Origin: Actinomycetota bacterium
GTDB lineage: Bacteria > Actinomycetota > Rubrobacteria > Rubrobacterales > Rubrobacteraceae
Direction of reading: 5' to 3'
Length of the DNA stretch: 32,356 nt
Assembly (NCBI GenBank): GCA_020200675.1
Contig: JAIVIG010000286.1
Location: 1-32,356 of the forward strand
Shown: positions 2,985 through 5,954 of the stretch, piece by piece
Position numbering within the stretch: position 1 is the stretch's first letter
Layout of the letters: every line of letters begins with the position of its first letter
Position numbers and translations under genes: made by a program
Notes under the pieces: generated by a model
The model's database searches: none
What the model was told of the DNA's origin: nothing
Seen by the model: only the letters and a program-made list of their open reading frames with translations

Positions 2985-3057
2985 GTCGCCCTATCGAAGG
3001 CAAAAGCGAATAGCTGAAAGCCGACAGCGGAGATGCTAAACTCTGGGCGTCTTCTTC

Positions 3058-3130
3058 GGGCCCGTAGCTCAGTTGGGAGAGCGCTGCCTTCGCATGGCAG
3101 AGGTCACGAGTTCGAGTCTCGTCGGGTCCA
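3058..3130 (+). tRNA. tRNA-Ala(CGC)
   Basis: GGGCCCG acceptor pairs with CGGGTCC; anticodon stem-loop CTGCC-TTCGCAT-GGCAG (anticodon CGC); T-arm ACGAGTTCGAGTCTCGT; no encoded CCA. Confidence 0.93.
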
Positions 3131-3131
3131 C
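3099..3131 (+). repeat. 33-bp direct repeat, copy 1 (tRNA-Ala 3' end; att-like)
   Basis: AGAGGTCACGAGTTCGAGTCTCGTCGGGTCCAC, identical to 4809-4841. Confidence 0.95.
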
Positions 3132-3168
3132 TCCGGTAAGCTGCATACCTAAGCAGGAAACGCAAATT

Positions 3169-3351
3169 ATGAGAGAAGGTCGAGAGCAAGTCCCAACCTT
3201 CTGTACACCAGTAGTCAGCCGCAGGTTTCTAATATTCTTGCTCGTAGTACTCGTAACAGCACTCTTCACAGCAGCCACGGCCTTGCTCAGGGACCACCAA
3301 GCCAAGCTTGTGCCAAGATCATCGAGAATGCTCCCAAAACGGCTGCAGTAA
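3169..3351 (+). CDS. putative small single-TM protein (60 aa)
   Basis: ATG at 3169 with AGGAAA upstream; MREGREQVPTFCTPVVSRRFLIFLLVVLVTALFTAATALLRDHQAK... contains one hydrophobic stretch; no family recognised. Confidence 0.35.
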   Translation: MREGREQVPTFCTPVVSRRFLIFLLVVLVTALFTAATALLRDHQAKLVPRSSRMLPKRLQ

Positions 3352-3368
3352 AGGCCGGATGTACTAAA

Positions 3369-3404
3369 GCGATTTGCGGAAGGTTCAACCCTTCCGCAAA
3401 TCGC
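3369..3404. repeat. perfect 15-bp inverted repeat (hairpin 1)
   Basis: GCGATTTGCGGAAGG-TTCAAC-CCTTCCGCAAATCGC. Confidence 0.9.
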
Positions 3405-3410
3405 GCCGTC

Positions 3411-3469
3411 AGCCATCAGCTTTCAGCGGTCAGCTTTTTGTTTTTGCTGACCGCTGAAAGCTGATGGCT
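3411..3469. repeat. perfect 24-bp inverted repeat (hairpin 2)
   Basis: AGCCATCAGCTTTCAGCGGTCAGC-TTTTTGTTTTT-GCTGACCGCTGAAAGCTGATGGCT. Confidence 0.95.
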
Positions 3470-3475
3470 AATGGC

Positions 3476-3504
3476 TTTGCAGAAAGGCACAGCCTTTCTG
3501 CAAA
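3476..3504. repeat. perfect 13-bp inverted repeat (hairpin 3)
   Basis: TTTGCAGAAAGGC-ACA-GCCTTTCTGCAAA; sequence-related to hairpin 1. Confidence 0.9.
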
Positions 3505-3752
3505 ACGCTCTAGCTAGAGCTGAGCAGGACACAGCACCGCGACGCAAAGACTCGCCACCGCTAGCCAGATTGGGAGGGTCCAGATCTTCGTAAAGGCCAC
3601 CAGGTAATCTGTCCGTCTTTCCTCTGCCCACTACCACTCTACCCGGGTCCCTTAACTCTCTTCCCGCTGGCCCTCCATCCTCTGCACCGGGAGCTTTCTT
3701 CCCCCCCGCCGCCGGGCCTCATCCCTCGCGCTACTCATCTTTGCTCGAAGGA

Positions 3753-4142
3753 TCAGAGCCGGTTGAAGAAGGCTTTTCGGGTGTCCCTCGGGCTCTCCTT
3801 GCTGGAGACCTCTACCTCGTTCGGCGCGAGGAGGAAGAGCCGGTCCACGACCGGGTGCATGGCGCCGTCCAGCGCGTAGACCAGGCCGGCGCAGAAGTCC
3901 ACCATGCGTTCGGAGAGATCCCGGTCAACACGCTGAAGGTTCAATAGGACCGGTCGGCGGCGTTTGAACTGGTCGGCCACGGCCTGGGCACCCTTGTCGA
4001 AGCTCCCCACCTCCACGACGCACATCCGCCGCGGCGAACCCCGAGCTTCGTCGGGGGGTGCCTCGTGCATCCTGCGGGCCGGAGCTCGCTCTTCGTATTC
4101 GTCATCCGCAGACCACGGCCCCACGCTCCCTAACGGCGTCAA
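3753..4142 (-). CDS. SepF-like cell division protein
   Basis: MCVVEVGSFDKGAQAVADQFKRRRPVLLNLQRVDRDLSERMVDFCAGLVYALDGAMHPVVDRLFLLAPNEVEVS matches the SepF/DUF552 core; start uncertain (4142 or 4025). Confidence 0.85.
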   Translation of the reverse strand: MTPLGSVGPWSADDEYEERAPARRMHEAPPDEARGSPRRMCVVEVGSFDKGAQAVADQFKRRRPVLLNLQRVDRDLSERMVDFCAGLVYALDGAMHPVVDRLFLLAPNEVEVSSKESPRDTRKAFFNRL

Positions 4143-4484
4143 GCATCACCTACCTCTCTCCCCCACGCTCCCACCAGGCGGCTAGCACAAGATGCAAGCT
4201 ACCCCATCGGCTACCCAAGCGCATCGGCCAAGTGGCACATCTTCACCAAAAAGGTCGGCGCCACAAAGGACCCCGGCCGCTGCTCCAGGGTAGCTGGTAG
4301 ATTGGAAACACCCGTGAAACTTAAGCCTCAAGGTTAGGTTTAGTCGTACAACATTCGAGTACCAGGGAGCTCCGTGCCGCCGGTAACTTGCTTCAAGGTG
4401 AGTCCGGTTGACATTGTCACGGCCGCCCGTATGTGCGAAGTTGGGGCAATGACCGCCGCCTGTAGAGAGTAGAAGGGGGACCAC

Positions 4485-4724
4485 ATGCGGCACTATTCGG
4501 GGCCAAGTCCGGAGAGCTTCGTTCTCTTTTCGAAGCGGATCGTCCTCGGGTGCGGGTGTGGGGAGAGGCTGATTCTCCTGGGCCTCGAAGAAGACTGGCG
4601 ATCGGAGAAGACCTTCTTCGAGTGCGAATGCGGGGCGCGACTCACCCTCGTCGACCGCGTCGAAGAAGAAGCCCCCGGAATCGGGGAACTGCTTCGCGGG
4701 AGCATCAAGGCTCCCGGCGCCTGA
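4485..4724 (+). CDS. small zinc-ribbon-like protein
   Basis: 79 aa, two CxC pairs (CGCGERL...CECGARL); GGGGGA upstream of ATG. Confidence 0.55.
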   Translation: MRHYSGPSPESFVLFSKRIVLGCGCGERLILLGLEEDWRSEKTFFECECGARLTLVDRVEEEAPGIGELLRGSIKAPGA

Positions 4725-4808
4725 CGGCAGAAGCCTCTCCCATCGTATAGAAAAGCCCCCTACATCCGCCCGGGTCCATCCTCCTTCCGGCACCCCCGCC
4801 ACCCGTCT

Positions 4809-4841
4809 AGAGGTCACGAGTTCGAGTCTCGTCGGGTCCAC
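4809..4841 (+). repeat. 33-bp direct repeat, copy 2 (displaced tRNA-Ala 3' end; att-like)
   Basis: Identical to 3099-3131; followed by sequence giving ...CGGGTCCACCA, i.e. an encoded CCA that copy 1 lacks. Confidence 0.93.
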
Positions 4842-4846
4842 CATCT

Positions 4847-5182
4847 CTACACGACCAGCGAGATCAGCCAATACGCCGTTACTCCGACGAGCACCGTGAG
4901 CCCTAGATTGCCGGAGCGCGTGGCGACGACGAGCGTCGGCAAGAGCGCGATCCCGACGCGGACCGATCCCGCCCCGTCACTAGCCTCGGGGAGTACCGAG
5001 GTTACCAGCAGCGCCACCACGACAGATGGCCCCACGAACGGCAGCAGCCCACCCAGCCCTCCACTCGCGGCGCCTCTCGTCTCCGCTTCTCCCCGCCGGA
5101 GCGCCCAGAGGAGCGGCAGAAAGCGCATCAGGTAGTTTCCCGTCCCGACGACCAGGAAAAGCAACAGGAGCTCACCCCGCAC
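4847..5182 (-). CDS. azlD: AzlD-family branched-chain amino acid transport protein
   Basis: GTG start at 5182 (VRGELLLLFLVVGTGNYLMRFLPLL...); overlaps the azlC end at 5172 by 11 bp. Confidence 0.82.
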   Translation of the reverse strand: MRGELLLLFLVVGTGNYLMRFLPLLWALRRGEAETRGAASGGLGGLLPFVGPSVVVALLVTSVLPEASDGAGSVRVGIALLPTLVVATRSGNLGLTVLVGVTAYWLISLVV

Positions 5183-5954
5183 CGTCCCTGCCCCTCCCGA
5201 GCAGTAAACCGGCGACCGGTCCGGCCGCGCCGGCCGCCGGCACGCTCCAACTCCCCAGGCCCACCAGATAGAGGACCGTGGCAACCGTCGCCGCCGTGAG
5301 GGTCGCTACGACGACGGGTCGCGACGCGCCTCCAAAAGCCACGTCTCCCGACCTCGTGAGCGAGACGAGCAGGGCGACGAAGAGGGCAGGCAGCGCGAAA
5401 GAGAGCGCGGGCGCGAGGGAGGGCAGCACGACCACCACGGCCGTACCGGCGACTGCCCCGAGCCAGGTCCCCAGAGCCCACGAAAAGTAGGCGCCCGTCC
5501 CGAGGCCCACAAGATAACCGAAGCCCGTCCCGGTTGTTCGCCCGGCCGGCCGCCTCTCGGACAGCTTAGTAGAGGCCACGGCGAAGACCTCATCGGTGAG
5601 GCCGAACGCGGCGGCGGCCGCGCGGCCGGTCGTCGTGCCACGAAGGTGCGGGGCGAGGGAGGGACCGTAGAGCACGTGGCGCGCGCCGAGGACAAGCGAG
5701 ATCGTCGCCATCACAAACCACGAAGCCCCCGTCGTCACGAGCCCCACGAGGGCGAACTGGCTCGCGCCGGAGAAGACAATGAGCGACATCAAGACCGCTT
5801 CGGTGGCGTTCAGGCCGGCGGCTCGTGCGGCGACCCCGAAGGCGACCGCCGCCGGCAGGTAACCGAGCACGACGGGAACCGACGCGCGCAGTACGTCCGC
5901 CAGGCCACCGTCGCCAGGTGCCTCCCCGGCCCGACCACGGCTCATCTCCCCCAC
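5172..5954 (-). CDS. azlC: AzlC-family branched-chain amino acid permease
   Basis: LGYLPAAVAFGVAARAAGLNATEAVLMSLIVFSGASQFALVGL and LVLGARHVLYG motifs. Confidence 0.9.
   Translation of the reverse strand: MGEMSRGRAGEAPGDGGLADVLRASVPVVLGYLPAAVAFGVAARAAGLNATEAVLMSLIVFSGASQFALVGLVTTGASWFVMATISLVLGARHVLYGPSLAPHLRGTTTGRAAAAAFGLTDEVFAVASTKLSERRPAGRTTGTGFGYLVGLGTGAYFSWALGTWLGAVAGTAVVVVLPSLAPALSFALPALFVALLVSLTRSGDVAFGGASRPVVVATLTAATVATVLYLVGLGSWSVPAAGAAGPVAGLLLGRGRDGAG

Follow-up and report, generated by a model that had tools for sequence, protein, structure and literature searches.

The window (the whole 32,356-nt stretch of DNA that was analysed) is contig C212 of a Rubrobacteraceae-like draft genome of 3.96 Mb, which is 87% complete with 5.6% contamination and is spread over 543 contigs. 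The locus of interest runs from an intact tRNA-Ala(CGC) gene, 93-100% identical to the tRNA-Ala(CGC) of most family genomes, to azlD (Table 1). The last 33 nt of the tRNA (AGAGGTCACGAGTTCGAGTCTCGTCGGGTCCAC) recur downstream with 100% identity at a spacing of 1710 bp, in agreement with an earlier note on this DNA, which had proposed a small island integrated at this tRNA. A whole-genome search (<=3 mismatches) for the further copies that the note suggested looking for returned the 33-mer at the window's two places only and a reversed control at none, and chance is therefore excluded as the source of the repeat. The distal copy lies downstream of the intact tRNA gene and in its orientation, as does the displaced fragment that bounds a tRNA island. 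The note had also allowed that this copy could belong to a second decayed tRNA gene with its own 5' half, but only tRNA positions 42-74 are matched there.

Table 1. Features identified at the tRNA-Ala(CGC) locus (positions in the window).
Feature	Position	Strand	Evidence
tRNA-Ala(CGC), intact, putatively the restored target gene	3058..3131	+	ARAGORN; Rfam RF00005, 67.1 bits at 3058-3130
Proximal repeat copy, putative attL core (tRNA positions 42-74)	3099..3131	+	Repeat comparison; pair unique in genome
Putative attL-side arm of a tyrosine-integrase element	3132..3210	+	Alignment with C500 and C447 element ends; shuffles
Hairpin within the arm	about 3174-3202	+	Alignment with C500/C447
TACACCA motif within the arm	3204-3210	+	Position equals that in integrase elements
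Inverted hairpin from a dispersed heptad repeat (GCTGANN), not element-specific	3405..3475	.	Genome search
SepF core-domain paralogue, 129 aa at most from a putative TTG start	3753..4142	-	PF04472, E=4e-20
79-aa zinc-ribbon-like protein (CxC...CxC), transcribed divergently from the sepF paralogue	4485..4724	+	
Distal repeat copy (displaced 3' end of the tRNA), probable truncated attR	4809..4841	+	Repeat comparison
azlD, first chromosomal gene past the island, marking the conserved flank with azlC	4847..5284	-	PF05437

Between the two copies no ORF matched an integrase, and a tblastn search of the window with four integrases from the same genome gave nothing below E=0.1, which bears out the earlier observation that no recombinase ORF is visible inside. 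The interior is not empty, and contains an ORF with a SepF domain and another for the zinc-ribbon-like protein. The SepF paralogue scored 72 bits with PF04472 (cut-off 27), and is 75% identical to a copy on contig C16 and 51% identical to the main SepF of the genome, the gene for which is found near ftsZ on contig C298. It shares with the SepF cell division protein the FtsZ-binding core domain, but differs in its small size, in its location away from ftsZ and in the absence of the N-terminal membrane-binding helix described for SepF (PMC7118173); the alignment with the main SepF begins at about residue 75, and the helix (MGVRDRLERVAAWFGFG...) is missing. The zinc-ribbon protein had no Pfam or NCBIfam match, and relatives of it were found in 15 of the 40 family genomes. 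Its family is small, undescribed and multicopy; genomes of the genus carry as many as seven copies each, and it is rare outside the genus. As a multicopy genus family it was rejected as a marker of mobility. Extra SepF copies are far rarer than those of the zinc ribbon.

The same divergently transcribed pair occurs on C16, with about 75% amino-acid identity for both proteins, and in a more distant form in the related genome G003. Neither of these cassettes has a visible tRNA adjoining it or ends of the element type. On C16 (about 1052-2980), a transposase gene with 22-bp inverted ends (GGGATTATATACTTGACACAGC) directly follows this second sepF-like/zinc-ribbon cassette. An origin of the cassette in a known phage or plasmid was considered and rejected, the SepF matches in plasmids and phages being only distant; a search of viral contigs for SepF homologues found none. 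Pairwise dN/dS between the window and C16, as a rough two-sequence estimate, was about 0.31 for sepF and about 0.14 for the zinc ribbon, and both genes are apparently under purifying selection. The pair probably serves the cell rather than mobility, perhaps by modulating FtsZ/SepF assembly, which is a guess. A SepF paralogue without its anchor that has been kept in such a place offers a small, testable lead on cell division.

The inverted hairpin at 3405-3475 is built of a heptad repeat for which 40 matches were found in the genome (<=3 mismatches) and none with the reversed control. The heptad GCTGANN occurs three to four times in succession, in many cases forming an inverted hairpin in which the 35-nt offset is the same, and was also seen at 3012-3031 of the window, C124:1604-1662 and C524:4379-4437. 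Matches to Rfam microRNAs at 3406-3475 were dismissed, as they are far below the gathering scores and are due to the near-perfect hairpin.

Two integrase elements of the same genome, one on contig C500 adjoining tRNA-Ala(GGC) and one on contig C447 adjoining tRNA-Ile(GAT), share a common order. Some 40 bp past the tRNA comes a hairpin rich in G+C, which is followed by a pair of short direct repeats (GACAGTTACCC or TGTACACC) and then by the 3' end of an integrase gene that points toward the tRNA. The stretch of the window just past its tRNA (3132-3210) gave local alignment scores of 45 with C500, 47 with C447 and 35 with the congener G006 at the same tRNA, none of which was reached in 1000 dinucleotide shuffles per comparison. 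The similarity to G008 was weaker (its score was matched by 21 of 1000 shuffles), and those to G007, G009, G016 and G001 were not significant by this measure, although the arm layout of G007 is readable by eye. At six loci (the window, C500, C447, G006, G007 and G008) the repeat motif starts 73-74 bases past the tRNA, and the match of the window to the integrase elements breaks off where the integrase gene would be expected to start. Judged from these alignments, the bases next to the tRNA represent the arm of an element, not random intergenic DNA. An arm shared with C500 and C447, together with the layout that congeners show at this tRNA, suggests that an integrase element was once present here and has lost its integrase. 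The arm and the congener layout likewise support the proposal of the earlier note that integration took place at the tRNA 3' end, with the tRNA restored on the proximal side. Of the integrase elements in this genome, that at tRNA-Ala(GGC) is likely represented by both its ends, the tRNA and integrase 3' end on C500 (L058) and a displaced 3' fragment on C537 (L117).

The same site was compared in relatives, the homologous loci in named records being those of Rubrobacter or Rubrobacteraceae MAGs. The azlDC genes are found downstream of it in G001, G007 and G009. In G001 and G007 the tRNA is followed downstream by azlDC and by yhfC-like and nif3-like genes, and in G009 these genes come after a displaced tRNA fragment. 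G009 has at its tRNA-Ala(CGC) an integrase that is 62% identical to the C447 enzyme over 378 aa, and its contig ends there. At the same tRNA, the integrase of G008 is frameshifted and that of G016 is present in scattered pieces, while G007 and G006 have kept the arm layout with a relic of an integrase or none. Stages of decay can thus be seen side by side at tRNA-Ala(CGC), from an integrase that is present to one that is frameshifted, reduced to a relic or lost, and this one tRNA gene appears to have been targeted for integration repeatedly in an actinobacterial family that has received little study. The comparison with relatives proposed in the earlier note also yielded an unoccupied allele in the genus, that of G001, which has the tRNA with azlDC downstream and neither displaced fragment nor arm. 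The genes between the tRNA and azlD differ among G001, G007 and G009, and this shuffling makes the exact empty junction unreadable. Orthologues of two such genes are found on contig C475 of the genome studied here (one by protein search, one by eye in L120). A loss of native genes between the distal copy and azlD is possible and is not claimed, as the orthologue of one such gene lies on C475.

This shuffling, with two of the orthologues now on C475, and the occurrence of the sepF/zinc-ribbon cassette on C16 and in G003 without a visible tRNA would be accommodated by two separate events, whereby the arm and the tRNA fragment stem from an old element, and the cassette came later by an unrelated rearrangement and was never cargo. 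We consider this unlikely, as one integration followed by deletions covers the same data in fewer steps. A misjoin of strains or genomes in a draft assembly of metagenome type, of which the contig number, completeness and contamination given above could be a sign, is hardly credible here, given that displaced tRNA-Ala fragments are common in the family, near-complete genomes included, and that the flank order from the tRNA to azlDC-yhfC-nif3 matches G001 and G007.

The distal copy differs from the other displaced fragments. Displaced tRNA-Ala fragments on contigs C537, C292 and C416 of this genome and in the relatives G009, G002, G015 and G034 start at tRNA position 26-33 (the starts for C416, G015 and G034 being taken from the scored run), which is in or just before the anticodon loop, and that of the window starts at position 42. 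The DNA to its left is homologous to C16 up to position 4807 (78% identity) and shows no attachment-site arm. With its start at position 42 and the C16-homologous DNA abutting it, the distal copy is read as damaged, and 4808/4809 looks like a deletion junction joining the cargo to a 33-bp stump, which would be the simplest reading. A core from position 42 is shorter than the anticodon-centred (A class) cores of the family and of sufficient length for a T-stem-type crossover (J class); since the latter would involve a smaller part of the tRNA, the distal truncation is one that we infer.

On C292 (L069), a tRNA-Ala gene (4515-4588) and a 3' fragment ending at about 7547 delimit a second island of about 3 kb without recognisable integrase, which has a 43-bp core and, by appearance, a toxin-antitoxin-like gene pair inside. 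On C416 (L118), a tRNA-Ala 3' core lies between ACTGCAAC arm repeats on both sides, with integrase-like sequence beyond, and the arrangement resembles an attP or elements arrayed in tandem.

Read past the repeat, the distal copy ends in ...TCCACCA and the proximal one in ...TCCACTC, from which the earlier note had argued that the original CCA-bearing end of the tRNA was pushed to the far side. This part of its argument does not hold. In the family tRNA-Ala(CGC) genes that were read, the terminal TCCAC is continued by T or C and no CCA is encoded, and the CCA of the distal copy was consequently rejected as proof of the original tRNA end. It amounts to just two extra matching bases, with a chance of 1 in 16, and the copy is only 6 bp from the azlD stop codon, while G009 and G001 have further genes before azlD. 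The orientation is right without the CCA, with the restored tRNA proximal and the displaced fragment distal.

Taken together, it is probable that the locus is an eroded integrative element of integrase-type origin at tRNA-Ala(CGC). A tyrosine-integrase element of the C500/C447 group would have entered the tRNA gene by recombination in its 3' half, leaving the tRNA restored, and later deletions would have taken away the integrase, the second arm and that end of the distal site which reached into the anticodon loop, with one deletion fusing the cargo directly to the 33-bp stump. The SepF paralogue and the zinc-ribbon gene would then be the surviving cargo, and the element is probably immobile now. 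The lower G+C content of the element, 0.52-0.66 versus 0.64-0.71 in the flanks, was counted in favour of this reading; the occurrence of the cargo pair away from tRNAs on C16 and in G003 counts against it, as its arrival with the element is an assumption. Also counted against it were the arm comparisons with G007, G009 and G016, which fell short of significance in the shuffles, and the fragmented state of the draft. No complete ancestor of the window element was found.

There is still full identity between the two 33-bp copies, one of the arms persists, and the genome encodes related integrases. For these reasons a live mini-element without an integrase of its own was weighed, in which both att sites work, an integrase encoded elsewhere (e.g., that of C500 or C447) excises the unit in trans and the sepF/zinc-ribbon pair is cargo. 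For a crossover of the T-stem type, which is known from about half of tRNA islands (PMC4383910), the 33 bp would be enough. The locus, however, has neither a second arm nor the anticodon-loop portion of the core, the other tRNA cores of the genome differ in sequence, and the unit does not recur with two ends, the 33-mer being confined to the window and the cassettes of C16 and G003 lacking such ends. We therefore regard a live mini-element as quite unlikely. Still further from expectation is a tiny element moved in trans whose soluble SepF core and zinc-ribbon partner interfere with or tune the division of the host, which we consider very improbable. Of the two possibilities left by the earlier note, a remnant or a trans-mobilised satellite, the remnant is thus favoured and the satellite is not, in view of the distal copy without its anticodon-loop segment and the lack of a second two-ended unit. 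Prokaryotic genomes are expected to be pervaded by tRNA-gene fragments that integration has left behind (PMC9897764), and the eroded element is accordingly counted as an ordinary relic with mildly interesting cargo. It illustrates that short perfect repeats of a tRNA, where no integrase accompanies them, can be stumps and not working mobile elements.

Of the described classes, the locus most invites comparison with the tRNA-gene islands of the anticodon-centred (A) class found by Islander (PMC4383910), with which it shares ends marked by an intact tRNA and, in the same orientation, a displaced 3' fragment. Other islands of the window's family have cores that start from the anticodon loop, whereas here the distal core is without that part and there is no integrase gene. 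The 1710 bp between the repeat starts are also below the lower limit of the 2-200 kb length filter applied by Islander (PMC4383910). A second comparison is with the cis-mobilizable element, or CIME, which keeps attL and attR (PMC5704250). As in a CIME, the ends remain after the loss of integration and transfer genes, although no ancestor of the window element with transfer genes was found. The locus differs in that its attR is probably truncated and has lost its arm, with the arm of attL kept, and, compared with a trans-mobilised satellite, a relic that at most resembles a CIME is the better fit.
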